From: Pyropia yezoensis
Taxonomy: Eukaryota > Rhodophyta > Bangiophyceae > Bangiales > Bangiaceae
NCBI GenBank assembly: GCA_009829735.1
Contig: CM020620.1
Location: 26,506,951-26,570,950 of the forward strand
Length of the DNA stretch: 64,000 nt
Direction: 5' to 3'
In this document: piece by piece, positions 3,578-41,198 of the stretch
Layout of the letters: each line of letters starts with the position of its first letter
How positions within the stretch are numbered: the first letter of the stretch is position 1
Notes under the pieces: model-generated
What the model saw: the letters and a program-made list of their open reading frames with translations, nothing else
Told to the model about the DNA's origin: nothing
Database searches by the model: none
Program-made: the position numbers and the translations under genes

Positions 3578-4382
3578 TACCCCCGTTGCGAGCTTCGAGC
3601 CGTCCCGGCGAGGTCCGATCCGGTGCGGCCGGGCGGCCGGATGTGGCTACCTGCCAGCGTGCGGTGGAGGGGTCGCGTCCGCGTCGTCGTTCTGGAAGCA
3701 CCGGGCCGTATGGCCGTCGGGCGCTGACTTGCATGCCTGGCCGGACGCCTCGTTGTCAGGGCACTATAAGTGTCTGGCACGTCGGTGCCGCGGAGCACTT
3801 GGCCGTCGGTCGGCACGTCTTTTGACGGGTGCGCCGGCTCGACCGTCGGTCGTGGCCGGTGGCTGGCCAGTTGGCTCGTTACGCCCCGCCGAGGGGCACT
3901 ACGCGGCTGCCGTTGGCTGGCGGCCGAGATCGGCCTGTGCGGCTAAGGGGCCAGTGCGGCCGTGCGGCAGGCGCGGCGGCACGGCAAGGGCGGCCACGCG
4001 GCGCGAACGGTCAGGGGCGTCGGCCTGGCGGCAAGGGCGGCCACGCGGCGCGGTCGACCAAGGGCGTCGGCCGGGCGGCAAGGGCGGCCACGCGGCACGA
4101 GCGACCAAGGGCGTCGGCGCGAGGGCGGCCAAGTGCGGCCGTCGAACGGCAAGGGCGGCCAAGCGGCGCGGTCGGCCAAGGGGCACGAGTGGTCAAGGGC
4201 GTCGCGTCTTGCGGCAAGGGCGGTTACGCGGCACGAGAGACCAAGGGCGTCGGGGCGAGGGCGGCCAAGTGCGGCCGTCGAACGGCAAGGGCGGCCAAGC
4301 GGCGCGGTCGGCCAAGGGGCACGAGTGGTCAAGGGCGTCGCGTCTTGCCGGTTGGCGTCAGTTGCTTGTGGCTATTGCCAGT
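3578..4382 (+). repeat. GC-rich imperfect repeats between B 3' LTR and aORF
   Basis: From about 3960 the sequence is built from variants of a unit containing CAAGGGCGGCCACGCGGC and CCAAGGGCGTCGG. Two direct copies of about 123 bp (4091-4213 and 4227-4349) are nearly identical and 136 bp apart. The plus frame stays open through the array and joins the aORF below, but the array reads as Gly/Arg/Ala repeats and is probably not part of the conserved protein. Confidence 0.7.
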
Positions 4383-6269
4383 ATGGCAGACGAGGTTGCC
4401 CCGGTGGTGGGCGGTGGTGAGGCGGAGGCATCGCTTGATGAATGTGCGGGGGCCGCACGGCCGGTGGTGGGCTGGTATCGGAGCCCAAGGGCGACCTATA
4501 TGTTTGACGGTGTCGGGTTCGTGGCGGACCCGCCGTTGATGGAGGCGGCGCGGACCAATCGGTCATTGGCTCTACAGCGTATCCGCGACGCGCGGTGGGC
4601 GTCGTTGCCCAACTTCCGGGACGCGTCAATCGACGGGCGGTTCTACGAGGGCGAGTCCGTGTCGGACGTCCATGGTCATGCTGACTTTGGTCGTCATGGG
4701 CCGGAACGGCAGGCGTACGAGGTGTTGTCGTTGTCCAAGGAGTTGCTGCGGTACGGGGCGGCTGGTGGTCTTCACCCTTATCATCGGCGTCTGTACGCTT
4801 GGGCGCTTGCCTTTCGTGTCGGGCAAGTTGAGACCTTTGTGGTCGCGGCCAACAACTTCGGCCGTCTTCGCCGGCTGTGGCCTTCGGCCGTGTTCTTGGC
4901 ACGTGACTTGGCCGAGCGGCTTGATGTGCCTATCGCGGAGGACCATGCGCTAGAGGAGTATCTGGCCCTGTTGGCTGACAAGGTTGCCCATGGGGTGCGT
5001 CCGGCGGGCGTCGAATTTGGTCCTGCGACCTGTTCGCTTCCTCACCCGTTCCGGGATCCGACGACGTCGATTCGTCTTCGTAGGTCGTGGGACCTGGCGG
5101 CCTTTGAGCGTCGCGGCCTTTTGGCGCCGGCTTGGGCGTCCAGCCTGGGGCGCGCACGCCCGTTCTTCGACCTGAAGCGTTGGCTTCCATCACGGCCATC
5201 GTGGTGGGTTGAGTACGGACCGTACATGGAGACGCCGGCGGCATTGTCGTACGTCGCCAGTGGGCTCAAGGACGCAGATAACGCGGCTTGGGGCGTCGTG
5301 TACGACGAGTTTTTCTGCTTTGCCTTGGCGGCTTGGGTGCATTGGCTTGTCCATGACGCACGTTTTTGCTGGTTGCCGGACCAAGTGACCGAGTGGTTCG
5401 ACGGGTTGGACGTGTCGCGGCTGGCCGATGGGCCCGGGGGTGAGGAGCGTCTTGCGACGTACCACCGTATGCGTGATGCACACGCCGTCTTCCCGTGGAC
5501 AACCATTGTCGCCGACGTCCGCCGACGTGATGAGCGCACCAAGGCGGCTCGCCAGGTGTACGTCAAGTTGGACGCGACGGCCAAGTATGGCTTCGTTCTT
5601 CGTCAGCCGTGCGGCGCGTATGATTGGAAGTATGACGCCTCGTGGGAGGGTGGTGACGAGTCGTCCGGACCGGGTCGTGGTCCCGGTCGTGGTCGTGAGA
5701 CCGGTCGTCGGGTGCGGGACGCGTCTCGGTCGTTGTCGCCGGTGGCCGGTGCGGGATCAAGTGACCGTGTTAACCCTGGTGTGGTTGCCCCTGTGTCCGG
5801 TGGGACCGGTGGCACGGAGCCGATCTGGCCGTCGGAGTGGGCCCGTGTGGGTGCTGTTGCCCTGTTGGGTACTGACCGGGTGGGTGCCTTGGCTGGGCAA
5901 GTGGTGCCTCGTGGCGCAACGGCTGGGGCGTTGGCCATTGCTTGGTCTCGTCAGACCGTGGAGATTGATGACGTTCTTCGTCGGGTCAGTGGGATGACTG
6001 AGTCGGAGGCCGTTGAGGCTTTGGTGTTGACGGTCTCCCGTTTGGCGGATCCGTCTCGCATTCGCGATAGCTTGCTCAGTGAGCTGCGTCGTGCGCCCTC
6101 GGTGGAGGCTCGGGCTGCGAGTCCTCGTCGTGTTGACGTTGGTGCCATTCTTGGCGTTCGTCGTCGACAGATGTCGGATGACGAGGAGGAGGATGCGCCT
6201 CGTACGCCGGCTCGGCGTGTGCGCTCGCGCAGTTCGTCTTTTGACGAGGGCTCGCGACGTCGCCGTTGA
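4383..6269 (+). CDS. Element B antisense ORF (aORF), 628 aa
   Basis: An intact ORF running opposite to gag-pol, between the 3' LTR and the end of pol. I chose the ATG at 4383 because conserved-looking sequence begins there (MADEVAPVV) and the open frame upstream is only tandem repeat. Residues about 260-450 hold the family core: FDLKRWLPSRPSWW, a W(V)-rich helix-like stretch, and ARQVYVKLD followed by VLRQPCG and a Tyr. These align with C and D. The tail is acidic, then Arg/Ser-rich (RRVRSRSSSFDEGSRRRR). It ends 41 bp from the convergent end of pol. I recognise no known domain and assign no function. This is the only uninterrupted aORF copy in the window. Confidence 0.6.
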   Translation: MADEVAPVVGGGEAEASLDECAGAARPVVGWYRSPRATYMFDGVGFVADPPLMEAARTNRSLALQRIRDARWASLPNFRDASIDGRFYEGESVSDVHGHADFGRHGPERQAYEVLSLSKELLRYGAAGGLHPYHRRLYAWALAFRVGQVETFVVAANNFGRLRRLWPSAVFLARDLAERLDVPIAEDHALEEYLALLADKVAHGVRPAGVEFGPATCSLPHPFRDPTTSIRLRRSWDLAAFERRGLLAPAWASSLGRARPFFDLKRWLPSRPSWWVEYGPYMETPAALSYVASGLKDADNAAWGVVYDEFFCFALAAWVHWLVHDARFCWLPDQVTEWFDGLDVSRLADGPGGEERLATYHRMRDAHAVFPWTTIVADVRRRDERTKAARQVYVKLDATAKYGFVLRQPCGAYDWKYDASWEGGDESSGPGRGPGRGRETGRRVRDASRSLSPVAGAGSSDRVNPGVVAPVSGGTGGTEPIWPSEWARVGAVALLGTDRVGALAGQVVPRGATAGALAIAWSRQTVEIDDVLRRVSGMTESEAVEALVLTVSRLADPSRIRDSLLSELRRAPSVEARAASPRRVDVGAILGVRRRQMSDDEEEDAPRTPARRVRSRSSSFDEGSRRRR

Positions 6270-6310
6270 GGGGGGGGTTGGGAGGTGAGGGTGTTGCCGT
6301 ACGGCTTGTG

Positions 6311-7165
6311 TTAGTCTTGTTTGTACTTGTGTTGGCCCTTTGGCTTGTTGTTTGTTTGTTCGTGTTTGAACATGAAGGCAGCCCTGGCCCATTCTGTTGT
6401 CTTTTTGTCCGATGTTAGGACTGGCCGGAGTATCTTCGACTCATGACAGAGCCGTTTGGCTTTTGAGAACCATGAGGCATGTTCCCAGCGTGGGGTGACC
6501 AGGAGGGTGTCCTTTGGACTGGATTGTAGCTCTGTGACCACTTGGTCAAGGGTGTGGGTGGGGGGTACCCTTAGGCAGATGCCTTGTGAGTTCTGCTCCG
6601 AGGCAGTGACATGCCTCTCCGGCTGGTAGCTCAACTGGCCATAGTGCTTGGTGAGTTCTGGGAGTTCCCAGAGTGGTCCCCATGTGGGGGAGGTGAAGTT
6701 CCGGCATGCCTCTGGCAGTGTTGACTTCATGTAGTACACAGGGATGTTTTCCTGGACCGAGCGGTCTGCGTTGTCCCATTGGACATTAGCCTGTACCACC
6801 CCCCATGGGTCGACGTAGACCGCGAGTATGTGTGGTTGCCAAATAGCGGCGGCTGCGCCAGTGAGCGCAACAAGTCCAGTTGCCAGAGCGACCTTGGTGG
6901 TTGGCTTTCGTGGCTTCCGCCACGTGTATCCAGGTATTTCTACCTTTTTGGATCGCAAATGTCGAATGACAAGGTTACGTGGCAAGTTTTCCACTGGTTC
7001 CCACGTGTCGTCCTTGGGGGTATAATCATACCATCGGACTTTGAATTCGTACGAATCTCCAGACCGTCGGTGAGACATGAGTTTTTCGATGACGTATTCG
7101 TCGTGGACGGTTGGCTCCGGCCGTGGTTTGTCAAACCCATCGAGTAGTGGACTCATTGGAGTTGT
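6311..7165 (-). CDS. Element B chromodomain plus C-terminal extension
   Basis: The minus-strand frame from about 7165 carries a chromodomain: EYVIEKLMSHRR, FKVRWYDYTPKDDTWEP, LPRNLVIRHL. Integrase-linked chromodomains steer insertion toward particular chromatin. Unlike D and E, about 200 more residues follow, starting with a basic linker and a hydrophobic segment (VALATGLVALTGAAAAIW, plus coordinates about 6838-6893) that could be a membrane span or buried helix. The rest is soluble-looking, with VTPRWEHASWF near the end. It sits one frame off pol, so this copy has a frameshift near 7150. The extension is not a recognised Env: there is no signal peptide or obvious cleavage site. Confidence 0.65.
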   Translation of the reverse strand, partial: TTPMSPLLDGFDKPRPEPTVHDEYVIEKLMSHRRSGDSYEFKVRWYDYTPKDDTWEPVENLPRNLVIRHLRSKKVEIPGYTWRKPRKPTTKVALATGLVALTGAAAAIWQPHILAVYVDPWGVVQANVQWDNADRSVQENIPVYYMKSTLPEACRNFTSPTWGPLWELPELTKHYGQLSYQPERHVTASEQNSQGICLRVPPTHTLDQVVTELQSSPKDTLLVTPRWEHASWFSKAKRLCHESKILRPVLTSDKKTTEWARAAFMFKHEQTNNKPKGQHKYKQD

Positions 7166-10100
7166 CCGGCCGGGGTGCCGCAGTGGCATGATCGCTGTTG
7201 ATGCGTTTCTCGATACCATCGACGTCAATGACGAAGGTAGAGTCGTCGGCGTCGACGACCATGAATGGCCCGACGGCCTTGCTCTGCAGCTTGTTAGCTC
7301 GTTGATGGTTTGTCGTATAGACATAGTCGCCGATCTTGATCTTACGATTGCGCGTCCCAACGTGGGCATCGAAGTTACGTTTGTAACGTTGTTGAGTCTT
7401 GGCGAGGGCCTTGATGACGGCCGGGATCTGCAGCCGCAGTCGGGCCATGAACTCGCGCTTTCTCGCGAGCGGCGATCCGTCATTGAGGGTCCCTCTTTGG
7501 GATATGGACGTGCCTGGTGGCAAGTTACGAACCGACAGGAAAGGGACACGTCGTGGGATGACAAGCTCGAATGGCGCTAGTCCAGTGGACCGATGTGGTT
7601 GGCTGTTGTAAGCCATAGTCAGGACGGGCAGAAGCTCGTCCCAGCGCTTGGGGTCCTCGGTCACGAAGTGACGCAGTTGTGTAGCAATCGTACGATTGTA
7701 CCGTTCGACTTGACCGTTGGTCTGTGGGTGGTACGCGGTGGTGCGCACCGTCTTGACTCCGAGTACCTTCATCACGGCGATGAAAAAGTTTGACATGAAC
7801 TGGGGTCCTTGGTCGGACAAGATCTTGTCCGGTGAGCCATAGCAAGCTAGCCAGTGTTCAATAACAGCGGATGAGACGGAGATGGCCGTGATGGTCTTGA
7901 GTGCGATGCACTTTGTAAGCTTTGCAAAGCGGTCCGTAATGACCAAGATGAATCGATTTCCGCTTTTGCTTGCTGGCAAGGGGCCGAGGATGTCGATCGA
8001 CAGTTCCGTCAGTGGTTCTGACGCCGGGAACAGGGTCAGAGGCGTCGTATGCTTACGCAACGCTAGCCGGTTCTGTGCACAAGTGGTGCAATTGGTGATG
8101 GTCTTGTGGATATCCGATATCATGGATGGCCAGTAGAACTTTGTTCTCATAGTGAAGTACATCTTGTTCATGCCCGGGTGGGCGGCCGTGGTGGCCATGT
8201 GTTGGAGCTTCAAGATGACATCTTGTTGCGACTTGGGGATGACCAGTTGGTCTCCATACACAGTTTTGCGACGCAGTGCGTTGTTGTCGTCAAGGTAGAA
8301 TGACTTGTGTCCTCCGTTGTTGACGCTGTCGATGATCGACTTGCAGAAATCATCCGATTGTTGCTTGTTAATGACTTCATAGAAGTCAAGAGGCTTGGGG
8401 TCGGTTGTGCCTGTGTACCTGTCCGTTTGGACGCCGTGTGCCGTCTGGGCCACCGCTGGACATGGTATGTCATCGTTGATCGTTTCGTTCATCGCGTTAT
8501 TGTCCGCGCGGGACAGGAAGTCGGGCAGGTGGTGACTAGCACCTGGCTTGTATTTCAGTTCGAAGTCGAACTCCGCGAGACGCATACGCCATCTCATCAA
8601 CCGACCGCTAGAGTCGGCAGTGCTGTATATCCAGCTAAGGCTTTGATGGTCCGATCGGATTATGAAGTGTTGTCCTTCTAGGAAGTGCCTCAACTTGAGG
8701 ACAGCCCACACAATGCCAAGGCATTCTCGCTCCGTTGTGGAGTAGTTGAGCTCCGCTGCGTTAAGAGCGCGGCTCCAGTAGCCGAGTGGCTGTGGTTTTC
8801 CATCGTCGTCCGCTTGGAGTAACGTGCAGCCGAGTTGATACGCACTTGCGTCGACATCGAGCGTTAGCTCACGCCCAGCCTTAGGCAAGGCCAAGATTGA
8901 TGGGTGCACCAAGGCGTCACGGAGGTCCTCAAAGGACGCCAACTCCTCGGTCGAGGGTGGGGACAGGTCCGGTGGGACGTCTTTCTTGGTCAACGCGTTT
9001 AGCGGTCGGGCTCTCTTGGTAAAGTCTACCACGAACCGTCGATAGACGTTGCACATGCCGAGAAAACTCTTGAGTTGGGTCTTGGTCTTGGGGAACGTTG
9101 CTTGACGCAGGGCGTCGGTGTTCTTGTTAAGAACGTGGAGTTTACCAGGCGTTATGCTGTGGCCGAGGTACTCCACCTCGTTGGAAAACCACTTGCACTT
9201 CTCAAGATTGAGAGTCACGCCGGCCTCCCGTAGTCGGGTAAGGACCTTTTCTACATCATGGATGTGTTGTTTGGCGGTTGCCGAGAAGATGATGACGTCG
9301 TCTAAGTAGACGAGGCAGACTTGCCACTTGAGTCCGGAGAGTATAATATCCAGGGCACGTTGAAACGTCGCCGGGGCATTGGTCAAGCCGAATGGCATCG
9401 TTGTCCAGTCGAAGATGCCATAGTGCGTTGTGAAGGCCGTTTTTTCTTGGTCCTCCTGCCGCAATGGCACTTGCCAGTACCCAGCGGTACAGTCGAGAGA
9501 GGTGAATACTTTGGCGTCTCCAAGGGAGTCGAGACAGTCCTCCATACGCGGGAGGGGGTACGCATCCTTCTTAGTGATGCTGTTCAACCGTCGATAATCG
9601 ACACAAAACCGGGCCTTCCCATTTTTCTTCGGTACGATGACGACCGGACTGGCCCAGTCACTGTGACTTGGTTTAATAACCTTGAGCTTCAACATCTTGT
9701 TGATTTGATCGACGATGATCGCCCGTTTGAACGCACTGGTTCGATAGGGCTGCGCCCTTATAGGGGCAACCCCAGGTGGGGTGACGATGGCGTGCTCTCT
9801 AGCGTGTATGACCCCGAGGGTCCCGTCCCACATCTTGCCATGCTTGGCCAACATCGACTTAATTTGCGCGTGCAAATATTGGGGAGCCCCGTCGAGGTTG
9901 ATGTCGTCAAGTGACGGTTTGGGCTGTTCGGTCTCTGGGTCGGTTGACCCCGTATCCTCCGTCGGGGCGGCGAGGACTTGCCCGAGGTGGGGCTCGGCAA
10001 ACGCGAGGACGCAGCCCTTTCGCAGGATGGCCGTGTTTGGCCCGAAGTTGCATACCTTAACCAGAAATGGTTCGTCAGGTTTGATGGTGGCGAGTCCGCG

Positions 10101-10765
10101 GGCGACTGCCATGGTCTTGTGTCGGCACAATCGTGCGTTTGGTTGAAGAGTAACCAGTCCCGGCGTGTCACATCTGACCATAATCCATTCCTCGGTCTTG
10201 CCCTTGAGGCGCGTTTGTTTGCAAGCACGGATCTTGGTCGACCCCCCGGCCCATTGGGGCTCCATGACGTCGTCTTGACGGATGCTCAGGATTGGGGAGT
10301 GGCCGATCGAATGGTTTTCAGCACCTTGCCAAACGATACGTTTGCGGGCGGGCAGGATTGCCTCGATGTGCTTATCGATGAACTCGGTCCCGAGTATGCA
10401 CTTGACCGACAGGTTTAGCGTAACGTAAAAACGTTCAAAGGCTTGAACCCCTCCGGTGTCGATGAACAAGTGGATGGCTTGGAGAGCCTTGATTGTTTGC
10501 CCGTTGGCATCAACAATGTGCGGTGCACTGGTTAACGTGTCGGCGTAGTCGCGCCAATGTGGCGGTAGAACATCCGGCCGGATGAGGTTGACGCCAGCTC
10601 CGGTATCGAGGATGGGTCTCATACTCCGCGTGTTCGCGAGCTCCGTGCCTATACAGGCGGCGATTTCATAATGTCGATGAGCTTTGCTCAGTATCTTGGT
10701 GACCTTAGGTCTATCTTGTCGGGCAGGCAAGGGTGCGTCGGGGAGACTGCCCGGTGGTCCTCGAC
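7131..10765 (-). CDS. Element B pol: protease, RT, RNase H, integrase
   Basis: A nearly uninterrupted polyprotein frame of about 1,200 codons. In order: protease (ILDTGAGVNLIR, near 10590); RT with FCVDYRRLNSITKKDAYPLPRM and active site VYLDDVIIFS (about 9270-9300); RNase H (LTLDVDASAYQLGC and TTERECLGIVWAV); integrase with the H-H-C-C finger (MATTAAHPGMNK, CTTCAQN), then the DDE residues in SIDILGPLP, LSDQGPQF and NGQVERYN. It is entered by -1 frameshift from gag and ends at 7131, one frame off the chromodomain. All catalytic motifs seen look intact, so B pol is the best preserved in the window apart from the frame break at its end. Confidence 0.9.
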
Positions 10766-10778
10766 TTACTCGTTTTTC
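10737..10778 (-). promoter_or_regulatory. Element B gag/pol -1 frameshift signal
   Basis: The heptamer GAAAAAC (10778-10772) is read G-AAA-AAC in the gag frame, followed by GAG and the TAA stop (10768-10766). After a 6-nt spacer, GTCGAGG (10765-10759) can pair with CCCCGAC (10743-10737), 6 of 7 positions. Pol is open in the -1 frame across the site. The heptamer is a weaker variant than in C, D and E. Confidence 0.55.
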
Positions 10779-12338
10779 GAGTCGGCCTTGCCGTCGCCGG
10801 CGTCGTTGCTTTCGACGTCGTCGTCGTCCGCGTCCGGCAGGACTTCGTTCTCGACAATCGCATTGATCTGCTTGCGGACCGACTCGTCGATGAGTGCCAT
10901 CACTCGTGCCTGACGTCGTTCACGACGGGGCTTAGGGCATCGAGAGGCAAAGTGTCCGCGCTCGTTACAGTTGTAACAGATGTCGTTCGCTCGCAGGTTG
11001 GGCGTGTCCGTGCGGACAGCCCTAATGGGGTTGAATGGTCGATCGACCGTGCGCGCTGGGGGCTCAGGGGTAGAGTCGATTTGACTAACCTTGATCATGG
11101 CTGGCCGGCTGGCCTTGATGGACTGCCGCAGGCGCGTGGCGCCTTCCCAAAACCCTTGGGCAGCTGCCACTGTGTCCGCCATTGGGCGATCAGGGAACTG
11201 ACTGTCCAGAACACGGACGTTTGGTTTGATGAGGTCTGAAAGACCGTTGATGAAGACGTCCTTTACGTCTTGGGCGGAGAACAGGCCACAGAGGCGATCG
11301 CACGCCGCCTCCACGCGGGAGGCAAACACGCGCGGGACGTTTGTGTCCGCTTGATTCATCGTAATGATGTCGTGGTAGGCCGTTGCCAAACCGGCATGAG
11401 TTGCGTACTTCTTGAGAAGCCAGTTGACTCCTTCACCATAGGTGGTGAGCTCGTAGTGCTTGCCACTGACAACCGTGTTGGCCGCGCTGGCGAATGCGCG
11501 CTTGGCGGCTCCCGCCAGCCGGAAGGCGATCAAGGGGAACGCCCGGCCGTGGGTCAGCCCTGCCGCGTCGCAAGCTCTGCGAAAGGTGGTGAGGAAGGTG
11601 AAAACACCGAGGGGGTCGCCACCGTTAAAGGTCTCTTGACCCTGGAACGCCCCGTCTAGGCGCTTGTTCATCTTGCTAGCATCTTTCACCATCGATGGTG
11701 TATACTTGGTGCTCCGTCGGAGAAGGAAGTAGGTCCTGTAGTCCAAGAGTGACTAAAAGCGACTGTTGCCGGGTCGAATGACCAACTTGCGGTCACCCAA
11801 CTCCGTGAGTTCAGCTGCCGGCGCCGGTCGGCGCCGGAAGCGACGCGCATGTCGACGGTGCGCGTCCGAACTTTCCGTAACGAAATCACTGCTCGATGAG
11901 GTCGGGCTTGACGGTGGGGAAGGGTCCCAACGACCGTCATAGGTTTCGTCCGAAGACGAGGAAGACGAGGACGACGAGTTGTCGGATGACATCCCATCAT
12001 CAGCGGATGATGCGCCTCCCTCCCGGGCGTTCGAACGCTTAGTCGAGACCCTGACCTTTAGGTCTTCGACTTGGCGCTCCAACGCGCGGATCCGACGGTT
12101 CTTCATCTGAAGATTGCCAATAGGCAGGCTGGCGTGGGACGCCCCTTGAGCAGGTCCCCGGGTCATCTTGCCCACCGGCTGTCGGTTCGACGTCGTCCGT
12201 TGACGAAACGCATCATTTGAGGGTGGCTTTCTCAGCTCCTCAAGAGTGGTCACCAGTTTGGTGTTAGACTTCTCCAACTCCTTGTTGGCGGCCTCTTGGG
12301 CCTCAAGACGGTCACGAAGTGCCTCCACCACCGCCTTC
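10766..12338 (-). pseudogene. Element B gag with zinc knuckle, in-frame TAG
   Basis: The frame runs from the truncated LTR into a coiled-coil-like segment (about 12330-12050), a Ser/Asp-rich stretch, the capsid-like core (NGGDPLGVFTFLTTFRRACD) and a CCHC knuckle, CYNCNERGHFASRC (about 10935-10980). An in-frame TAG at 11755-11753 splits it into about 200 and 326 codons. The natural start is missing because the deletion that removed the 5' LTR also took the beginning of gag. The core is only distantly like those of A, C, D and E, which fits B being a different lineage. Confidence 0.75.
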
Positions 12339-12812: not shown

Positions 12813-13352
12813 TGTAGCTGTACTCCCAACCACCAACCCGGAGTCAGGGAAGGAAGAGGAGTATTGCCGATATCCCAACTTGGGACACCGGAAGCAAGCA
12901 CCTCCACACAGCCGAACACGGAACTTGCGTGTGGTGAGCGGGTCCACTCACCAAGGCACGAACAAGATGTGTCGGAGCCAGACGGTGTTTACTTGCTTGG
13001 CCAGCCAAGGTGGGCTCTCCCCGCCTTGCTGTCCCTCCTTATCAACCCTCCCCACACGCTCACGCAACCCCTCAAAACACTCAGAAAATGAACCCTCAAA
13101 CAAACCAATCATATCACTCCACATGCAAAGCACTCAAAGCGTAGAAATCCGTCTGGCTCCCGTGCAAAAATCCCAAGAAACAAATACCAGCAGCATTACC
13201 CTGCTCTGGTATGTCGGAAGTCCTAGTCGAATTTCCGTCCAGAAGTCAGAAGTTTCACCATCGTGGGTCGGGTGAATTTCGACTTCCGGTCAGGTCCACT
13301 TGACCCGAATCTCCAAAGTATTGGTACCAAATTCCAGCCCAATCTCCCACAT
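12813..13352 (-). repeat. Probable element A 5' LTR (about 540 bp)
   Basis: Plus-strand ends are TGTAGC at 12813 (inner, beside the primer site) and CCCACA at 13352 (outer). Beyond 13352 the sequence resembles the interior of an aORF, belonging to element E. No second copy lies in the window, so the outer end is inferred from the TG/CA rule and the start of aORF-like sequence. Confidence 0.5.
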
Positions 13353-14902
13353 TAAGGTCTGGGACGAGGCGCTCAAGGGGTCGGGGAGCCTGAACTGCGA
13401 TCCCCGTCCGAGCATGGTCGCTCTGGAGCCGCCTTTCGCGACCCGGAAATACTCCAAGTTGTCGCCGGCACGGGAGCAAGGCGAGCGACGCGGGCGTCAG
13501 CGTGCCTTCCTCGTGAGCTGCAACCATCAGGAGTTCTGGAAGCTGGACAAAGGCTAACCGGGCGGCGTACTACCCCAAGGTCATCCCGCAGCAGCAGGAA
13601 ATCTAGATCCCGGTTGGGCTTGCTCCATCCAGCATCCCCTTCACCTGGTACTTCCTGGACGCCTTGACCCAGGCATCGATCGAGGGATTCTTCCACTCGT
13701 TCCCGTACATTATGTACACCTCCGAGACGACGGTCTTGTCGGCCAACCACTGGCTCCACGAGGTCTTGGTGTCCAACCGGCTTTGGTTCCTCCCCGACCT
13801 CCTGATGGTCTGGATTGTCGACAAGTTGACCGTCGACTTCCTGTGCAGCCAGGACGAGGAGTACAAGGAGCTCTTCCAGGCGATGATTGACTTCCGGCGT
13901 CGGCTGCCGGTGCATGACCGGAGCTTCTTGAACGCGGTTGCCGAGCAGAACAGCCCGCGTCGGGATGGCTCCGGTTGGGTGCAGGTGGTCTACAAGTCTT
14001 CTCCGGCCAAGGTGCAACTGTCGATGCCGCTTCCGGCGTGGCCGCAGCTAGGCAGCTTTCCTGCTCCGGTCGCCCTTGATCTCGTGCCAACTGGGCTGCC
14101 GGTACAAGATTCGGGTTGGGCCGCAGCGGTTGGTCGGGCGTCTGCGGCGGCTTCGCTTCCTCCTGTTGCCCGTGTCGCCCCGGTGGCTTCGCCTGAACCG
14201 TCGCCGGCGCGTTTGCGCTCCGCCCCGGCTGTGCCGGTACTTCAAGCTCCTCCGGCACCGCGCCTGTCTGCAGCGAGTCTGGGGGTGGCCGTGCGGTCGC
14301 CGACTACTCCGGCCGTTCTGCCTCGGGCGCCTTTTTCAAACGTCGGCGGCCCTGTGCCTCCTCTTGAGTTGGGGACTCCGGCTGCCGGGGCTGTTGTGGA
14401 CCGTCCGGTAGTGGCATCCTCGGGACGATTCGAGATCCCGGCGCCGACTCTACGCCTTACCCGCTTCCGGGTGCCTGACTGGTACCTGAACCTGGGTGGC
14501 CCGACATGCGACCAGTACGACGTCGGTATGATTGAAGACTAGCTGGGTCGCCTTCCGGTGCAGGTTGAAGGCGTCGGGTCTTCCCTGGTACTGGGTACTT
14601 ACGCCAGCGTCTTGAACAACGTGGTTGACCGGGTGTTTGCTTGCGCGGACAGCGGCCAGATGTCGGACAGCCCGGTGGTTGGCGAACTTCTGGCGACTTT
14701 GACGCGGCATGGCTTGGCCCAGCAGTGGTCAGAGACCTTTACCGGCTTCCAGGGGCGCCGACAGGCTTATCTGGACGAGCGGGAGCGCCCGGCAACTACC
14801 GGTACTACTCCGATGGCGTCATACCTGGAAGCGCCGCGCCCACCACACTACGTCATCCCGCCTTCCTCCGGCTCCCGTCGTGCCGCGGAGGCAGCGCTGG
14901 AG
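13353..14902 (+). pseudogene. Element E antisense ORF, broken and split by element C
   Basis: A plus-strand aORF relative. The frame to 13557 contains AFLVSCNHQEFW, matching GPYLVTAAQLEF in D. After a frame change near 13550 come AAYYPKVIP, then HWLHEVLVSNRLWFLP, matching YYPKKPEWW and QWLLEV in D. In-frame stops are TAG at 13603-13605 and TAG at 14540-14542; the frame then stays open to 14902. Element C is inserted there, and the last codons and stop lie on the far side at 23583-23624. The N-terminal third is absent, consistent with element A having inserted at 13352. A Pro/Ala/Val-rich linker occupies about 14000-14450. Confidence 0.65.
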
Positions 14903-21025: not shown

Positions 21026-21040
21026 AGTGGGAGAAGCTCT

Positions 21041-27857: not shown

Positions 27858-27870
27858 CTACTCGTTTCCC
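27842..27870 (-). promoter_or_regulatory. Element E gag/pol -1 frameshift signal
   Basis: GGGAAAC (27870-27864) is read G-GGA-AAC, followed by GAG and TAG. The spacer is 5 nt, then GGGCAG (27858-27853) pairs with CTGCCC (27847-27842) around a 5-nt loop, a perfect 6-bp stem. Pol is open in the -1 frame through to the protease. Confidence 0.75.
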
Positions 27871-29829: not shown

Positions 29830-30324
29830 TGTGGTATAAAACTCAATCCTCTCAGACACGTGTCAATATCCCTCGGGGGAAAGGGACAGGTGACACAGAA
29901 AGGGGAACTACGAGAGTGGTATGCCTGTTGCCTCACGTGCCTGCTCGCAGAGCAAACAGATACGCACGGTAGTGCACACGGGGAAGAGGAAAGCAAACGC
30001 GCAGTTGTCTTTTTTCCTGAGGGCGCGGGCCAAGGGCGCCTCGCTGTCCCTCTTAACGTGCGTCTGGGGGAGCCTCGGCACGTTGGCCAGGTAGCCCCCC
30101 CCATAACCCCGAGTGGCCCCGACCCGAGTCTAACCTCGTCAGGTCGGGGGCCACTATCACTACTAGTTCTATTCCCACTCACTAATCTCACACTCAATTT
30201 CTCTCAAATCAAGTCCCTCACAAGTATGCAAGAACCCATCAGAAATCCCTCTCTTACGTGTGGATAGCGTAGTCCACCGCATCCCAGTGCCGGGCACGGG
30301 CCACGGCCGCCAATCATCACCACA
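29830..30324 (-). repeat. Element E 5' LTR (about 495 bp)
   Basis: Plus-strand ends TGTGGT (29830) and ACCACA (30324) form a perfect 6-bp inverted repeat. The inner end abuts the primer site and the outer end abuts transposase coding sequence. The partner LTR is not in the window. Confidence 0.6.
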
Positions 30325-32174
30325 CGGCGGGCGTGTTCTGGCACCTGGTGCCCTCTGGTTGCAGTCCCGGGTCGGCGCCAAGTCGGGGCCAGGGATGCTA
30401 CACGGACGAGCTCAACACGTTCGCGGCGGGCATTGACGGCGTATCGGTGTGGGGCTCCGAAGACGTTCACACTTTATCGGCCTTCGTGGTCCAAGTGACG
30501 GCAGACATGCCCGGAGGGGACAAGGTTCTGAACGCGACCGGGCACAATGGTCGCAGCCCCAACCGGTTTCGCGACTTTCATGGCGTGCACTACGGATCTC
30601 ACTACTACTTTCCCCCAACTTATCCTTCCTCCGGCGAGGTGCTCTTCTCCATCTCAAGCCCGAGCAGCTTTCGTCGCGAGCCGGGGGCCTTTCGCGCACA
30701 CGCTGCCGATGTGGAGCAAACCCAGATGGACAACCGCAGTGCGCACTACATCGCCGAGCTGGGCAAGTAAACTGGTGTCAAAGGGCCGTCCCTGCTCTTC
30801 GCACCAAGTCGACAGGACCAGAGCAAGTACCCCAACCTGAAGTACATTGGGGACTTAGGTCCAAACTTGGCACCCTACGACACAAAGCACCTGATTTTGC
30901 AGAATGTCGTTCCGTTCTTGTGGAAACTCTTTTCCGGCAAGATTGCAATTCAAGGCGACAAAGACGCGCCCTACTGCATGCCGTCCGCGGACGCCGTCGC
31001 CGTTGGCCACGAGATCGCGGCGGCAAAGGCGACGGTACCCGCCTCTCAGGCGCGCGCCCTGCGACATGTGCACGTCTGGTTCCGCTCCTACAAAGCGGTT
31101 GACTGGATGGTGTTCATCTTGTCTACAGGAGAGGCAGTCCTGTCTGACCGCATATCGGACACAGCGTTTTCCATGTTCTTGGCCCTCTGCAAAGCCTGCC
31201 GTCCTCTCTTCCGCCCGCGGGGGCTTACTGAAGAAGAGCTTCACACTGTCGATGGTCACCTGAAGAGGTTCTGCACCTTGTTTTACTCTCATGTGTACAG
31301 GTGTGGCTGGGAGCGCGTGCCCCTTTGCCGGTCGACAATCGCTGCTCTTCTCGACATCGTGCCCAACATTTGGGCGTGTGGCCCTGCTTGGGTGAGCTGG
31401 CAGTTTCCAACGGAGAGGTACATTGGGACACTGCCTCGGCTCATCAAGTCAAGGAGCCACCCTTATCCGACGCTAGCCAATGCTGTGTCGCGCGAGTACA
31501 AAGCCGAGATCGTGACAAGTTTCGCGGAACGGCATTTAGGCGCGGAATGGCGCGCTGCTGCTGGCACCACTGATGGTGCAACTCCCACACGGGGTTATTC
31601 GTTGACCCACACAGACGGATCTACAACGGTGCTGTTGCCTCCACGGGACGTCCCATCATACCTGATTGGCTCCGAGCTGCAGAATCAGAAGGCCACTTTG
31701 ACATTGGATGGAGCATCCAGTATTCCCGACGCAATTTACGCCAAGAAGTACTTTCGGCTACAATTGCCTAACGGAGTGCTCGTCGGGTCCAGCCGGTCCA
31801 GCTCGGATGACGACACGCACAAGAGACGCAACAACTGTGTTCGCGTCCAGTCTACGGCCAGGCGTCGGCGGCAGGATGGCTCGGTGGAAGAGTACGAGCT
31901 GAGCACCTATGGGCTGGTGCATCACTTCGCCCTCGTACTTATCGAAGAGCAGCCGAGGGCGTTTGCGTACATTGAGTGCGTCAAGTCTGTCGCTGACCGG
32001 TCTGGTCGGTGTGGTCAAGCGAAGCGGCGACGCGGGATGGACTGCTTCTTCAGCTCTGGCGGCGCATGTCGCCATGTAGACGTGGCCGCAAACGACTCGG
32101 TCGTCGGCACACTGCGGCGACACGGGCGGCACATGGTGCGTTTCATCCGGGAGCGGTTCAGCGATGTACCCTAG
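30325..32174 (+). pseudogene. CACTA/EnSpm-like transposase, N-terminally truncated
   Basis: The plus frame reads HTLSAFVVQVTADMPGGDKV, then GHNGRSPNRFRDFHGVHYGS and YYFPP, resembling the tnp2-type transposase block of CACTA elements. After one in-frame TAA (30768-30770) the same frame continues 435 codons from 30867: KHLILQNVVPFLWKLFSG, then GPAWVSWQFPTERYIGTL and RSRSHPYPTLANAVSREYKAE, like the DUF4218 region of the same transposases. The C-terminus ends at TAG 32172-32174. The N-terminal half is missing, probably displaced by element E. The expected transposase would bind element ends and cut DNA. No CACTA terminal repeats were identified. Family call is from memory of conserved blocks. Confidence 0.75.
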
Positions 32175-32289: not shown

Positions 32290-32759
32290 TGTGGCAGTAT
32301 TGACCCCCAGGTAGGGGGGCAACACGTGCCATGCAAGGGGCGGCAGGCCACTGGCCTGATCCGTTCCTCCCCCTGCATTTGGGTCCATATTCCCTAAGTT
32401 TGGGATAGTTAGCTTAGTAGTAAATCCAACTTGGATTTGAGGGTTTTCTGCATTTATCGTCTTGAATTTTCGTGTGGCCCGGTGGGCAGGTGCTGGGGTG
32501 GGAGATTCTGAGTGGCGAGATTCTGAGGGGACCCTGGGGGGATGAGCGGAGGGACAGCGGGGCTTGGCCCTGCGTCCCCGTCCCGACCAAGAAACTGTTG
32601 GACCACACACCATCTTCTTGTTTGTCAGTGGGGGGATTGCCCCACAACAGGGATAGAGTGTGTGCGACTTGCACTTCTTCCGGTTCCCCCCGACACGGGA
32701 GGCAGCCCTTGTACACCGCCCCAACTTGGGTGCCGTGTGTTCGAGAGGTTTTAGCCACA
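32290..32759 (+). repeat. Element D 5' LTR (470 bp)
   Basis: Starts TGTGGC and ends GCCACA, a 6-bp inverted terminal repeat. Partner at 41199-41668. Confidence 0.95.
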
Positions 32760-32854: not shown

Positions 32855-34825
32855 ATGTCATACGGATCGTCAGCCAACATGGCTAGCTCGGACCCCCCGT
32901 CGTCCGGGGAGTACACGGGTGACGCACGTACTTCAGTGCCTCTGAATACTGGTGAGACACAGGTGGGTTTACCTGGGGTCGCAGAGGGACTAGAGGTCCC
33001 TCAAGCCAGCAGGACTGGAAGTGCGGGCGGGCAACAGGCCACCCCGACTCAGTCGGGAGTTCACTCGGGTGACACTTCTGATGTGAGTGGGCCGAAGTCT
33101 GGCCACCATGTGGTATACTCAACGGGAACGTCCCAAGGGGTGAGGACTGTCCCCGCGGGTTCCACTCGGGTTGGAGCCAACTTTGGCTTGGAGCCGTCGC
33201 CAACTAGGCTTTCGGAGGACGGCGGACCTCCGTTCGTCGGCGATGGGCTCGCGCCCATGCCCCCGGTTGAGACCCCTGAGGATCGTGGTTACCCCTCAGG
33301 TGGACTCCCGGAGGCGGACCGAGACTCAACTGGAGTCGACAATCCACTCCTCGCGGAAGCTGTCTGTCGGGAGGCGACCAATGTGTTGCGGCAGACTTTG
33401 CCGGACCTGGTGGTCACGATGACGAATACTATTCTGAATCAGATTGTGGCGAGTTTGCCAGATGGCCTTAATGACCAGACCGGATCGGGGCTTTCGAGCC
33501 CGCAGGCGCAGGGGGAATCCCTCCTCACGCCTTTCTCAGGTCGCCCCGAACAGGGGGCGACACCTGTGACTCCCAACGAGGGAGCCACACCATACTCAGT
33601 GGGGCGTAAGCCCTTCACGGGTGAGTTTCCCCCGGGAACGCCGGCGGCTATACCGAGCTCGCCGCGCCAGACTACAGGCACTGAGGGTCAACTTACCCCA
33701 GTGCCACAGCGGCTGTTCCCTCAACGTGAGGTGCCGCCCAAGATCCAGGTAGCCAACCCGGTCTACCAGAGGATCTTTGATTGTGAGACCTACGCCCTCC
33801 ACAACAAGTCGGTGGCGTATGGTCCTGACCAGGCCCGAGCCATGGGCCGTGCCAAGAAGAACGCATTTCACTCTTTTGGGCACAAAGCGGAGTGGGATGG
33901 AACTCCCCCCCTCCGTGTCTTTGAGTTCCTACGTCGTTTCACAAAAGCCTGTTAAGACAATGCCATAAGTGAAGGCATGGCTTTCTATATGCTACAGGAG
34001 TTCACGAAGGGCGACCTGCGGACAGAACCTATGTCCGTCATGCCCAGCTCCTCAAGGGGAGGCGCTGGTGAGGTGACGTCCTATTTGGAGCTCTTCAACT
34101 GGTTGTTGAGAGCCATGGTTGATGAAGCGGCGTTGGCTTCTCAAGCTGAGGAGTTTACGCAAGCCCATCAGGAGGAGGCGGAGGACGAGTTGTCCTTTGC
34201 GGAGCGAGTTCGTAAGCTCAACAATCTTTGTGGGTTTCTTCATCCACAAGCTGTGGTGAAGAGTCGGTTTGTGGAGGGACTCCATTGGTCAGTCCGGATG
34301 GAGACCCGGGAGCATAACACTGCCTGGGCGACCCTGGCCGAGTTGGCTAGGTTCGCTAACCGCAGAGGCGAGGCCTTCCGCAAGTTGCGGGAGGAACAAC
34401 GCCAGGAGCGTCAGGCCGAGTTGGCCAAGGAACGTGAGGAGGCGCGCCAGGCCAGAGAGTTGAGAGAGGCACGCCGAATCCGCAAGGAAAGGGTGGTAGC
34501 TGCCGTGGGAACTTCCCAGGGTATCTCTTCGTCTTCCCCAGTTGGGAAGACCCCTCCGGGAACTGACAATCGGTGTTGGAACTGCAACTCCGATGGACAC
34601 TGGGCATATGATTGCTCCAAGTTGAGTGAACGCATCCAACAACTTGTTAGGAATGCGAGTAAGAAGTCGGCTTCGAACGAAGTACGTTCACGCCGCGAGG
34701 GTGGGTCTCGACCGGTGGTGGCGGTCGCCACACCCTCGGCGGAGGGGGCGGACACGTCGTCCTCGGACTCGTCGTCTTCTCCTTCGTACTCAGATTCAGA
34801 CGCCAAGTCGGCGGGAAACGAATGA
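32855..34825 (+). pseudogene. Element D gag with zinc knuckle, one in-frame TAA
   Basis: It starts MSYGSSANMASS at 32855. A long Pro/Gly/Thr-rich N-terminus leads to the core FDCETYALHNKSVAYG and AEWDGTPPLRVFEFLRRFTKAC. A TAA at 33953-33955 interrupts it where other gags have Asn or Asp, and the frame continues DNAISEGMAFYMLQEFTK. An Arg/Glu-rich helix (34380-34490) and the knuckle CWNCNSDGHWAYDC (about 34577-34618) follow, then an acidic Ser-rich end. It stops at TGA 34823-34825, overlapping the pol ATG as ATGA. Without the TAA it would be about 656 residues. Confidence 0.88.
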
Positions 34826-34858
34826 CCGTTGGAGCTGGTCGTCCGAAGCTCACAACGG
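34813..34858 (+). promoter_or_regulatory. Element D gag/pol -1 frameshift signal
   Basis: GGGAAAC (34813-34819) is read G-GGA-AAC, the canonical X-XXY-YYZ form. It is followed by GAA and the TGA stop. After a 6-nt spacer, CCGTTG+GAGCT (34826-34836) pairs with AGCTC+CAACGG (34847-34858, one bulged A), an 11-bp stem with a 10-nt loop. Pol is in the -1 frame. Confidence 0.8.
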
Positions 34859-37800
34859 CAGCCTCGGCCAAGTGGGTCAAGAGGACGAACCAACCCTGCC
34901 GGATACTGCGGCGACCTAAGGGAGTCCGCCCACCTCGGGTAGGACTCCCCAAGAACGTAAACCCACGTCGGGTCACCGCGGTGCTGACGGGTGAGAACTT
35001 CCAGGTGGCTGGACGGGTGCAACTTGCCCCCGGCCGCGCCTGTTGTGCCCGTATCGTACTTGATACCGGGTCAGGAGCCTCCTTGATACGCAAGTCGCTA
35101 TTACCAAAGGAGATGAAGCTCCAACACTGGAAGTCTAAAGCTGACCATCTGATCAATATCAATGGTGGGGTACTTCCCATCGTTGGTGCCGTGACCCTAC
35201 CAACTAGGTTGGGGACCCATGAGGTCAACGTGACCTATGGAGTAGTTGAGAAAATATCGGTACCCCTGCTTCTGGGTACCCCTTATGTTGTAAATCAAGT
35301 GCCTTCGATTTGTGGCCCTGAGTACTGGGTCAAGTTCATGAATGGGGAAACCATCCCCATCCTTGGTAAGGGAAAGTCTGTGGCTCCTGTGACAGTCTCA
35401 CAGTCGAAGCCTGTTTGCTCTGTGAGAGAAGGGTTTACTGCTACCCTGCGTTTAGCCCGTAAAGTCACGTTGCCCCCAAACTCGGTGGCGCACGTCGACG
35501 TTGTAACTGATTATACGGGGAGCGGGTTGGTGCACGCTCACCCCCGTCTTGCTCGCAAGCACCAAGTGCATGTTGCCCTTGGCACGATGGACTCCAAAGC
35601 CGGAATCCCGTGGAGGATCCAGGTGATGAACCTCAACTCGTCGCCCAAGTACTTCAAGTCGGGAGCCAAGTTCGGCTATATCGACCAACATGAGGGACCG
35701 GTAGTAGCGGTCACCCTCAACGAGGGCGCGAGTAGCAACCCGAAGTCCGGAAAGGAGAAGCATCAAGCCAAGTCGGCCGCCTCTCCTCGGCCCCATGTGA
35801 ACATGGAGGGTGTTCCACCCAGGTTGAGGGTTCAAGTTGAACGCCTCTTGGACCAATACCACAGGTTGTGGGACGGTCAATTGGGACTCATGAGAGCCAC
35901 CCAACACCGGATCGAGTTGAAGCCCGGTGCACCCCCTATACGCCAACAACCGTATAGGCGAGGACCTCGTTCAAGGGCCCTCGTTAAGGAGCAAGTTGCT
36001 CGCATGGAGGCCCTCGATGTGATCGAGGCCAGTAACGCCGAGTGGGCGAGTCCGGTGGTTATGGTCCCCAAAGCTGATGGGAATCCACGGTTCGGTATCG
36101 ACTACCGTAAGCTCAACGAGAGCACGGTGAAGGACAGTTATCCCCTACCTAGGATGGATGACTGTCTGGACTCTCTGGGGGAGGCAAACGTGTTCTCTAC
36201 AATGGACTGTAACGCGAAGTACTGGCAAATTCCCATTGCCCCGAAGGACAGGCATAAAACTACCTTTACCTGTCACTGTGGTACCTACCAATGCAAGCGA
36301 CTACCGTTTGGACTGTGTAACGCGCCGGCAACTTTCCAGCGCGCTATGGACATGATTCTGGCCGGAGTACGGTGGCAGATCTGTCTCGTGTACCTAGACG
36401 ATATCATTGTGTTCTCCCGAAGTCCGGAGGAACACATTGGCCATCTTGGCCAGGTGTTCAAGCTACTTGCTGACGCCGGTGTATCACTGAAGGCGAGTAA
36501 GTGCCACCTCTTCACTCAAGAGGTGGAGTACTTGGGACATGTTGTCCGTCCGGGGCGTCTCAGTGTCAACGAGAAAAACTTGAGGGCCATCCGTAAGGCT
36601 CAGTACCCCCGGACACAGACCCAGATGAGGAGCTTCCTCGGGATGTGTAACGTGTACCGACGTTTCACCAAGGGCTTCGCCAAGGTGGCGAAGCCATTGA
36701 ATGAGCTAGTTAGCTCAACGCTACCGAAGAACCTGCCTCCCCCAAGTCGGGTGGAGCAGGAATCCTTTGAGACTCTTCGGGACCTTCTGCTGAAGCCCCC
36801 CATCTTGGCTATTCCCAGGTTGGGAGGCCACTACATCCTGGATGTGGACGCTAGCTACGACCAACTTGGTTGTGTGTTGCTTCAGCAGCAGCCGGACAAG
36901 GAGTACTTGCCGGTAAGATACTTCAGCAAGGGGCTGAACTCGGCCGAGAAGAACAACGGAGTCACCGAGTTGGAAGGACTCGCAGTGGTGTGGGCGGTGA
37001 CGTCACTTCGTCACTACCTAGAGGGTGAGAAGTTCCTCATCCGCTGTGACCACCGCGCGTTGCAGTTCATCTTCAAGACGGATTGTACGAACACTCGTCT
37101 CAACCGGTGGAGGGTGCGACTGGCACCCTTCAACTTTGATATTGAGTACCGACCTGGCAGGCAACATGCCCTGGCCGACGGCCTTTCTCGGGTACCTACC
37201 GAGGGGCTGGACACTAACCCAGTCGATGAGGACATCCCCATCGTGGGGGTAGTCACGCGCTCGAGACAGGAGTTGAACCCCGAGGCGCCAGGGAACAAGA
37301 AGTACTTGCCCCTGTCCCTGGACGAGGTGGTGAAGGCCCAGGCCGAGGATCCCTTCTGCAAGTCGCAGAGGGATACACTGGATACAGTGGCGGAGACGCG
37401 GTTCTTTTTCGGAGACGATGGCCTCCTCATGAGGAGGGGGGTATTCCAGGGGACCGAACAACTTGTCGCCGCCGCATCCCTCAAGGACGGTATCCTTGAG
37501 AGGGAGCATAATGCGCCCACAGGTGGACACCTGGGCTCTAGTAAACTGTACCAGACCCTGAGGACCAGGTACTACTGGCCGTCCATGGTGGTGGACATCT
37601 ACAGTTGGGTGGCTGCCTGCACAAGTTGTGCGCAGAACCGTCTGATGGAACGGCGGCCTACTACGGCTATGCTATTGTTCCCGGCCAAGGAGCCCTTTGC
37701 CGCGTTGGCGATGGACATCCTTGGGCCACTGCCAGTGACCGAGGAGGGCAACCAGTACCTCCTGGTTATCTGCGACCGCTTCACGAAACTTACGCGAGCG

Positions 37801-38805
37801 ATCCCACTGGCAGAGATCACGGCCATGTCGGTCGTGTCAGCCTTCCTAGATCACTGGGTTGCCGCGTATGGCACTCCGGATAGTACACTATCGGACAATG
37901 GACCGCAATTTGCGTCTGTACTGTTTCAGGGAGTGCTGGATATGTTGGGGGTTAAGGCAAACTATGCCACCCCCTACCACCCACAAACTAATGGGCAGGT
38001 GGAGCGCTTCAACAAAACTATTGTTCGGCAGCTGCGCCACTATGTGAGTGAGCATGTGAAAACGTGGGACCAATACATTTCTATTTTTACCACTGCCTAC
38101 AATTCGCAGGCTCACTCATCTACCGGGGAAGCACCCCTCGCTTTTGTGACCCCCCGTCGCGTGCGGTCTATTGCCGTGCGGCGGCCACTCCCAACTAGGT
38201 AGGATGGTGGCAGTACGCCTACTCCTACTGAGAGTAAGGCGGAGTTCGCTGCTAGGCTTGAAAACCTCATCCCTAAAGTCAGGGCTGAGATGGACAAAGC
38301 ACAAAAGCGCTACAAGCGTACCTTTGACAAAAAGGTGCGCAATGCTAAGCATGTCCCCGAGCAGGGTGACTGGGTACTGGTTCACTCACACACCCTAACT
38401 GGGGGTAAGTTGGTATTCCAGACGAAGGGGCCGTACCAGGTCCTTCGTACTGATGGGCGGCGCTTCACCATCGAAAGTGACGATGGGGTCCGCACAGTGA
38501 ACGGACAGGACGTGGTCAAAGTTGCACCACCGCCTGCAGGCGACCCAGCTTGGGCGCGGGCGCTGGAAGCGTGGCGCCTCCCCTCGCTGCCTGCGGCCAA
38601 ACAGGGCCCGCAGGAGTACGTGTTCGATAAGTTCATCGACCACGGCTGGGATGAGGACACTAACCGCCTCATGTTGAGGGTGCGTTGGTTCGGCTACAAA
38701 GCCAAGGATGATACGTGGGAGTATGTGGGGGACCTTCCCGCTGAGAAGGTCCGGGCATACTGTGCCCGGAATGAGATAGACCCTAACAGCCCCCCCTCAA
38801 CGTGA
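34822..38805 (+). pseudogene. Element D pol: protease to chromodomain, one in-frame TAG
   Basis: Protease VLDTGSGASLIRKSLLPK (about 35055-35110). RT has FGIDYRKLNESTVKDSYPLPRM and VYLDDIIVFS (about 36390-36420). RNase H has ILDVDASYDQLGC, TELEGLAVVWAV and RCDHRALQF. Integrase has the finger NAPTGGHLGSSK and CTSCAQN, then MDILGPLP, LSDNGPQF and NGQVERFN. TAG at 38200-38202 falls between integrase and chromodomain; the same frame continues through MDKAQKRYKRTF to the chromodomain YVFDKFIDHGWDED, LRVRWFGYKAKDDTWEY and stops at 38805. Catalytic residues look intact. Expected role: reverse transcription and integration of the element. Confidence 0.92.
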
Positions 38806-38916: not shown

Positions 38917-40860
38917 CTAGGAATGCATGCTAGACTCTCCAACCCCACGGCCCTCGCCCTCACGTGGAGGCGAGCGGCGAGACCCACGGCGATAGCGCTC
39001 CCCACCAGTCGGCGGGGCCGGCGGCTCCAAGTCGGAACCGTCACGCCTCTCACGGTCGCGCAAGTGGCGACGACCGCGGCTGCTCTTCTGCTTAGTCTTG
39101 CGCGCAAGTTGGCGACGCAGACGCCGGACTGACTCCGACTCTGACGGAGTCGAGGACTCCGAGACGGAGTAAGACAACTCGTCTTCCGACACGGAGGGAG
39201 AACGCCGCGAGCGTCGGCGACGACGGCGAGGAGGCGAGTATGCCCGGCTCGCACGACGTTTGCCACGCCCAAGTGGGGCTGGCTGGGGCATAAGAGCCCC
39301 AATGCGAGCCAACTCGGCTGTCATAAACTCCGCCACCGACTCGCAACTCGCGGTCACCACTGCAGTACGAACGCGCTCCTAAAGTTGAGGAGTCTCGGAA
39401 GTTTGAAGGGTTGCGGTCGACGCGGCCAACCAGGAAATGGTGCGCACCAACGTGGTGATCATCATCTCTGAGGTCAGAGGCGTGGGCGGTAACACCAACT
39501 TGGGGTATACCGTCAGAAGAGTGGCCCCCAAGTTGGGAGACACCGGGGTGGACGACTCAACGGCCACGATAATCGGGATGTTCCCGTGAGGCTGGAAAGG
39601 AACAGGAGGAAGCGGAGGGGCACGCCGAGGTGGCGGTACCCGGGTGTAACTGCGACCCCGACTTGGGGCCCCCGCAGTGGGTTGAGTCATATGGTCATCA
39701 TAGGACGGCACGGCCATAACTATGGGCTTGTCCGGGGGTGGCGCAGTGTGGCGATCCACCCCCGGGGCATACGGGTAGTCCCCGATGCCCAACCCCTCTC
39801 GTAGGACCACACGGCCGTCGTGAAGTTCACGAGCGACCCACACGAACTGGCGAAGTGCGCCATCGTCCTTGGGCCCACGAGTGGGGCGGCGCAACTTGTG
39901 CTCAATGCTCTCCCACTCGATAAACTTATGGAGCCGGAGCATCTCCTCAAGTAGAGTGAGTTGTCCTGATGAGCACCCCTCAGCAACTAGCTGAGGGGTG
40001 AGCTGTTCCAAACCTTGGATAAGCCGGAGGGGGAGATGCCAGAGCATCCCCCGCCGCTGAACACAAGACACCCAGGTCGACATGACCTCGAGGAGCCACT
40101 GGGTGGCCAACATGGCCCACACCAGATGTTCCGGGCTAGCCGTCAACATGACGGAGCCGAAGTGGTCGAGCAACCGTGGCAGCAACGCCGGGAACCCGTA
40201 GGGGACCTCAACTTGAGACCACCACTCGGGCTTCTTCGGGTAGTACTGCTCCTTACTGGCAGCAGACTGCTGAGGAAACTCAAGTTGAGCCGCGGTCACC
40301 AAGTAGGGACCTCGCCGGAAGTCCTTCTCCATCCGCACATCAAAGTGATGAGTGTGCGGATCGGCCCCGTGAAGGTACGGGGGGCGAGTTGCCAGCGCGT
40401 CCCAAGTAAAGGTTGGCAAGTCGCCGGGACCCGGGATAGTTCCCCCGCGGTCCACCATGGCCTTGGCCCGCTGAACGTCCTCGAACTCCTCATCGTCCAG
40501 GAAGGCAAACTGGTCCGTCCTGAAGCCGGCAGGGAACCCGACCCTACGGGGATACTTCTCCCGTAGGCGGTCCCATACCCGACCCATCGCTGGGCCAAGT
40601 CGGCCACAGCGAAGAGCAGTCAACCCCTCCTCATACAGAGGCCAAGCGGGGTAAAACCACCGCCCCAAGGCCTCACGCGGGACAACTTGTCCCGACTCCG
40701 GGGGAGATCCCGCCGTCAACCCAAAGCCGGGTGACGCGGGAGTCCCATCCCCCGGAGCGATCGCGGAGCCCCCGCCGGAAGTCCCGGCGGGCGCTGCACC
40801 GTAGGAGGTGTCCTCCATACGTTCATCGAGGGGGTCCGTCTCCACCCCCGGGGTCGCCAT
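38917..40860 (-). pseudogene. Element D antisense ORF (aORF), one in-frame TAG
   Basis: I chose the ATG at 40860 (MATPGVETDPLDERMED) because it matches the C aORF start; an open frame extends further upstream to 41031. Core: GRWFYPAWPLYEEG, AFLDDEEFEDVQRA, GPYLVTAAQLEF, YYPKKPEWWSQVEVPYG, QWLLEVMSTWV, LRQFVWVARELHDGRVVLREG, GDYPYAPGVD. TAG at 39381-39379 interrupts the frame, which continues with an SR/RS-rich basic tail (RRRRRRSRRSPSVSEDELSYS) to 38917. Full length would be about 647 residues. The Arg/Ser tail suggests RNA or nuclear association, but this is inference. No known domain recognised. Confidence 0.65.
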
Positions 40861-41185
40861 GGCTCTCCCCAAGTTGGGGACAGACGCCCTGGCTACAGCG
40901 GCATGAGACCCGCCTCGAGTTGAGGGGGACTCGGATCGTGGGTAGACGGGTGGCCTCCCCAGCGTGGGGCGGCCCAGGGGAAGGTGAAGGGGATGTGGTG
41001 GTGGTGGTGAAGTGAGAACCGGGGAGAGCAAGCTGCCAAATGGGCAAGCTTGAGGAGAGGGGCGGTCAACGCGACCGCCTCCACACCCGCGTTACGTACT
41101 CGAGGGGGGACAGCAAGTCGCGCCCCCAACGCCGAGACGTGCGTTTACGCACCCCCTCACAGGGCCGACCGGGTCGGTCGGAATT
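40861..41185 (-). other. Element D, between aORF start and 3' LTR
   Basis: Probable upstream region of the aORF. An open antisense frame extends to 41031, but it is Pro/His-rich and not matched in C. Confidence 0.4.
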
Positions 41186-41198
41186 GAGGAGAGGGGAG
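41186..41198 (+). promoter_or_regulatory. Element D polypurine tract
   Basis: GAGGAGAGGGGAG immediately precedes the 3' LTR, the expected site for plus-strand DNA priming. Confidence 0.8.

Follow-up and report, generated by a model that had tools for sequence, protein, structure and literature searches.

Why should four retrotransposons lying close together in the genome of a red alga each carry an open reading frame (ORF) opposite to their own gag-pol genes, and does that frame encode a protein of use to the element? Repeats make up nearly half of the genome of Pyropia yezoensis and LTR retrotransposons are their main class, as given in the portion of PMC7423979 consulted. The window analysed here is a stretch of 64,000 nucleotides (G000:C3:26506951-26570950) of the 107.5-Mb assembly. 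It contains four Ty3/gypsy elements, B, C, D and E, and in each of them an ORF convergent with gag-pol is found between the end of pol and the 3' LTR:

4383..6269, plus strand: antisense ORF of element B, 628 amino acids, uninterrupted, the sole unbroken antisense ORF among those of B, C, D and E in the window
38917..40860, minus strand: antisense ORF of element D, with one in-frame stop at 39379-39381
16155..16397, plus strand: N-terminal piece of the antisense ORF of element C, in its own frame
16499..18010, plus strand: main open piece of the antisense ORF of element C, with a C-terminal piece in another frame at 17626-17940
13276..14902, plus strand: antisense ORF of element E in pieces 13276-13554, 13607-14539 and 14543-14902, its left end truncated
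23586..23624, plus strand: final codons of the antisense ORF of element E, beyond the C insertion

All four elements have the placement that marks the antisense ORF class aORF-3R, between pol and the 3' LTR and opposite to gag-pol. The original prediction, made from the letters of the window, of a long antisense ORF in each element was borne out in position and strand for all four, but the ORFs of C and E are not single ORFs in the window. In element C, 16155-18013 is broken over several frames, and C itself sits within the antisense ORF of E, splitting it so that E resumes at 23586-23624. The antisense ORFs of C, D and E are thus interrupted in the window, but they have open relatives elsewhere in the genome. 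The sequence blocks that had been quoted for the antisense proteins are present. The remaining parts of the four elements are as follows:

3930..4348, plus strand: tandem repeats of element B, between its 3' end and the start of the antisense ORF, with spacings of 47, 71 and 136 nt
6311..7576, minus strand: ORF of element B forming the tail of pol, with chromodomain PF00385 (Pfam, 7.9e-10)
7131..10919, minus strand: pol of element B, with reverse transcriptase, RNase H and integrase (Pfam)
10766..11752, minus strand: part of gag of element B with a CCHC zinc knuckle (Pfam)
14903..15594, minus strand: 3' LTR of element C, 692 nt, 99.4% identical to 22893-23584
18222..22795, minus strand: gag-pol of element C, broken into three open frames, with a Pfam integrase in 18222-19811
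22893..23584, minus strand: 5' LTR of element C, partner of 14903-15594
23770..27405, minus strand: pol of element E, with reverse transcriptase, RNase H and integrase (Pfam)
27858..29397, minus strand: gag region of element E, two open frames assigned by position
29834..30401, minus strand: 5' LTR of element E, assigned by eye because it has TG...CA ends and resembles the sequence upstream of the E ORF at locus L069, with no computed match
32290..32759, plus strand: 5' LTR of element D, with ACTGC just before it
33956..34822, plus strand: part of gag of element D with a CCHC zinc knuckle (Pfam)
34663..38199, plus strand: pol of element D, with reverse transcriptase, RNase H and integrase (Pfam)
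41199..41668, plus strand: 3' LTR of element D, with ACTGC just after it

The two LTRs of element D are 470 nt long and 98.7% identical, and the ACTGC that borders them, read by eye, is a 5-bp target duplication. The ends of element B share merely 50 nt (94% identity, 3528-3577 against 12335-12383). Apart from the chromodomain of B, Pfam gave no PF00385 match in the pol frames of C and E or in that of D, a frame that stops early; chromodomain-like sequence at the pol ends of C, D and E was read by eye. The part of PMC3350952 consulted describes the retrotransposon chromodomain as absent from the P. yezoensis data of its day. Beside the 5' LTR of E, an open frame on the plus strand (30771-32174) looks like a transposon-associated protein and has no Pfam match at E 0.01. 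The window also holds a lecithin:cholesterol acyltransferase-like gene on the minus strand (48482-51832, PF02450, 1.6e-61), which probably belongs to the host and has a long ORF, open by chance, on the other strand.

Searches of the whole genome list the candidates that rank highest by score, which favours intact copies, and the counts that follow are of matches listed in this way. For the D ORF there were 87 matches; all are free of stops over the region matched, and 80 have the same 724-residue open frame, although the D copies are nearly identical, so that their common openness says little. The 88 matches to the C ORF range from 100% down to 31% identity, many of them with stops. Those to the B ORF number 71 and span 100% to 40% identity; stops are lacking in the first 12 and present in many later ones. 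The E ORF gave 127 matches at 87-100% identity. Three further lineages of antisense ORF, F, G and H, were found as well. Counted from the first ATG chosen, the reference ORFs are 647 amino acids long in D (locus L002), 596 in C (L044-L047), 624 in F (L061 and L063), 705 in E (L069), 622 and 632 in B (L071 and L072) and 342 in G (L065 and L068).

The arrangement seen in the window recurs at these copies. All 30 D loci show an LTR on the 5' side of the ORF and, on its 3' side, pol running on the other strand. At the 30 C loci, pol was found in 26, an LTR in 25 and both in 22; since the loci reach merely 1.5 kb past the match, a part missing at a C locus may lie outside. Three D copies out of 29, set against the window copy, diverge from it directly beyond the 3' LTR and are therefore separate insertions. 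Most of the copies examined contain the ORF, and its conservation in most copies is of the coding type.

Two local arrangements of antisense ORFs were also observed. A second B ORF (G000:C3:26499325-26501208) lies to the left of the window, 12,008 bp upstream of the window's own and 100% identical to it, which reflects a recent duplication or gene conversion. At G000:C2:16966507-16975458, four E-type matches follow one another at an exact spacing of 2673 bp, as if a short ORF-bearing unit had been amplified in tandem.

The lengths of the open frames and the way in which their codons have changed both bear on whether a protein is made. GC content is 63-67% in the four antisense ORF regions tested, and in each of the four the observed open length exceeded that of all 1000 order-1 Markov sequences simulated. 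By the Nei-Gojobori method with 200 bootstraps, which leaves GC bias outside its model, dN/dS was 0.08-0.50 with upper limits below 1 in 16 of 17 copy pairs. The values were 0.083 in D, 0.16-0.21 between C1 and C2 (four pairs), 0.20-0.48 within C1 (four pairs), 0.50 within C2, 0.34 in F, 0.24 and 0.28 in E, and 0.14, 0.21 and 0.17 in B; the G pair gave 0.75 (CI 0.36-1.80). In 60-codon windows of four pairs, the lowest ratios fall in the core (0.11 and 0.05 in codons 181-300 of C; 0.06 in codons 241-300 of both B pairs). Constraint is looser over the first 60 codons of the C pair, at 1.34, and over codons 421-480 in one of the B pairs, at 0.72; such a pattern would be expected from a folded core that bears loose arms. 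The claim that conservation argues for selection on a protein agrees with these ratios, which are mostly well below 1 and not near 1 across copies. The antisense ORF is almost certainly a real protein gene under purifying selection.

The seven lineages are, as judged from their proteins, related, B and E by profile comparison only. In BLASTP the C and D proteins match at 2e-19 (30% identity over 197 amino acids) and B and D at 4e-7, and a G-type query matches C (best 6e-36), D (best 1e-16) and lineage H (1e-12). Taken singly, B-C (0.087), E-B (0.014) and E-D (0.34) were not significant in BLASTP, as had been anticipated in calling the B and E matches weaker than that of C and D. With hhalign, a profile of C, D, F, G and H matched E at an E-value of 5e-7 (probability 92, score 60.9, the best of 60 shuffles scoring 24.4). 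The same profile matched B and its relatives at 6e-4 (probability 29, score 39.8-40.0), where the best of 240 match-column shuffles reached 22.3 and one of 60 shuffles in an earlier control scored 133.9, without explanation. The alignments cover 210 columns for E and 204 for B, in order through the core. Direct profile comparison of B with E gave no significant link, and plain hmmsearch recovered neither. E likely belongs to the family of C, D, F, G and H, and B somewhat less likely so. The family of four first proposed for the window is thus strong between C and D, whereas B and E join it through profiles. No other pair is as close in integrase as C and D (51% identity against 28-46% in the other pol comparisons listed), and these two are also the closest in the antisense protein, which fits descent of the gene together with its element.

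No convincing relative of the protein was found in Pfam, PDB or BFVD, and no DNA-binding fold; no relative was confirmed in IMG/VR. Protein-database searches, each scoring about 8000 candidates with the most shared words, returned 3, 5 and 1 matches. Two relatives of the B protein occur in P. vietnamensis at 46-47% identity, where they are named hypothetical proteins. A structure model of the D protein, built from an alignment of 52 sequences, has a mean pLDDT of 54.5, with 10-residue blocks over residues 121-320 at 63-92. Residues 121-320 are mostly helical in the model; beyond them come a short beta pair at about 339-353, a linker modelled with low confidence and another helical stretch. The model of B is poor; its predicted helices follow the common P-x-WW motif in an order similar to that of D, which weakly supports a likeness between the two. 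Net charge over the last 100 residues is +10 in D, +4 in B, +2 in F, 0 in E, -1 in C and -7 in G. The tails of C, E and G are not basic and that of F is weakly so, and a basic tail is therefore no family trait.

Antisense ORFs in this position have precedents, and the statement that they are known in some plant LTR retrotransposons was correct; plant elements with this layout are well described, so that the red-algal ones are less novel. In the portions of PMC7264820 consulted, maize Grande gene23 and the antisense ORF of rice RIRE2 have the position and orientation seen in Pyropia, and gene23 is described as having an antisense promoter of its own and a nuclear product. The comparison of the Pyropia ORFs with gene23 is one of layout. 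Boty of Botrytis, likened here by its description in the same source, extends an antisense ORF between pol and the 3' LTR beyond land plants. Retand of flowering plants is, according to the parts of PMC11963269 consulted, similar to the Pyropia elements in being Ty3/gypsy with a long region between pol and the 3' LTR, where almost every recent cluster has an antisense ORF (97% with TRP28). About half of Retand elements have tandem repeats in this region, which in Pyropia are found in B, and a nuclear DNA-related role has been proposed for TRP28. The same source provides HTLV-1 HBZ, a nuclear antisense accessory gene product of a retroelement, as an analogy of arrangement only. Retand differs in belonging to a non-chromovirus lineage, whereas Pyropia element B carries a chromodomain, and in its hosts, flowering plants rather than a red alga. 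Its antisense proteins also carry PF04195 (TRP28/Transposase_28). By comparison with the Pfam model alone, PF04195 had no match at E <=10 in 52 members of the antisense family or in six frames of the whole genome. We consider it improbable that the red-algal antisense proteins and TRP28 of plants derive, with great divergence, from a single gypsy accessory gene predating the split of red algae and land plants; if they did, an antisense trans-regulator would be an old and overlooked component of how gypsy genomes are built.

Our main reading, to which we give a probability of roughly one half, is that the ORFs form an accessory gene family of Pyropia Ty3/gypsy elements, antisense between pol and the 3' LTR, whose product acts as a nuclear regulator in trans. 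The regulatory role, for which we see about even odds, is argued by analogy and modelled on what has been proposed for the Grande gene23 and Retand TRP28 proteins. Transcription of the ORF would be driven by an antisense promoter located within the 3' LTR or immediately internal to it; a promoter scan found TATA-like words upstream of B only and none in C or D. The product would consist of loosely constrained arms around a mostly helical core, with a second helical region in several lineages and basic tails in D and B. It would enter the nucleus and there affect the element in trans, most probably by influencing LTR transcription or by countering silencing by the host.

Among the other readings, a helical structural or replication cofactor that joins the virus-like particle or pre-integration complex, for example in nuclear import, and has no part in transcription regulation seems unlikely. 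The mostly helical core of the D model is compatible with it, and import of the pre-integration complex is named in the consulted part of PMC7264820 as a possible role of antisense proteins. The Pfam search produced no Gag or capsid family match and there was no match to a solved fold, and an antisense transcript would be an odd source for a bulk particle protein.

Some plant DNA transposons have anti-silencing factors that counter their repression by the host. Such a function, which we regard as rather doubtful here, would suit the high number of young D copies, and strongly diverged lineages with a constrained core would be expected if each protein recognised its own element. It has no domain or fold evidence behind it, and by sequence it looks the same as the regulator that we favour.

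It is very improbable that the ORF encodes an env-like membrane protein in reverse orientation: the maximum Kyte-Doolittle mean over 19 residues is 1.91 in G, above the usual threshold of 1.6 for a membrane helix, but 1.23-1.47 in the other five of six lineages, and the stretch of highest hydrophobicity in the D protein is modelled as a helix within the confidently predicted core. Chance open frames in GC-rich DNA, persisting since the copies are young, find some room in the base composition and in the nearly identical D copies, but the simulations, the dN/dS ratios and the protein similarity between lineages leave them a negligible chance.

We found no work on antisense ORFs in red-algal elements in a survey by title and opening abstract that included a minority of subscription journals, and the function of antisense ORFs in LTR retrotransposons is not settled. 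With the Pyropia elements, a layout described so far mostly in retrotransposons of flowering plants extends to red algae, where it involves a protein family that appears to be new. For annotation, antisense ORFs of this kind should not count as host genes, as the two P. vietnamensis relatives of B, now hypothetical proteins, illustrate. A constrained protein on abundant young copies in a small algal genome makes both its expression and its effect on the element testable there. The same position in so distant a host, with no detectable likeness to the plant proteins, suggests that the layout itself serves the element.
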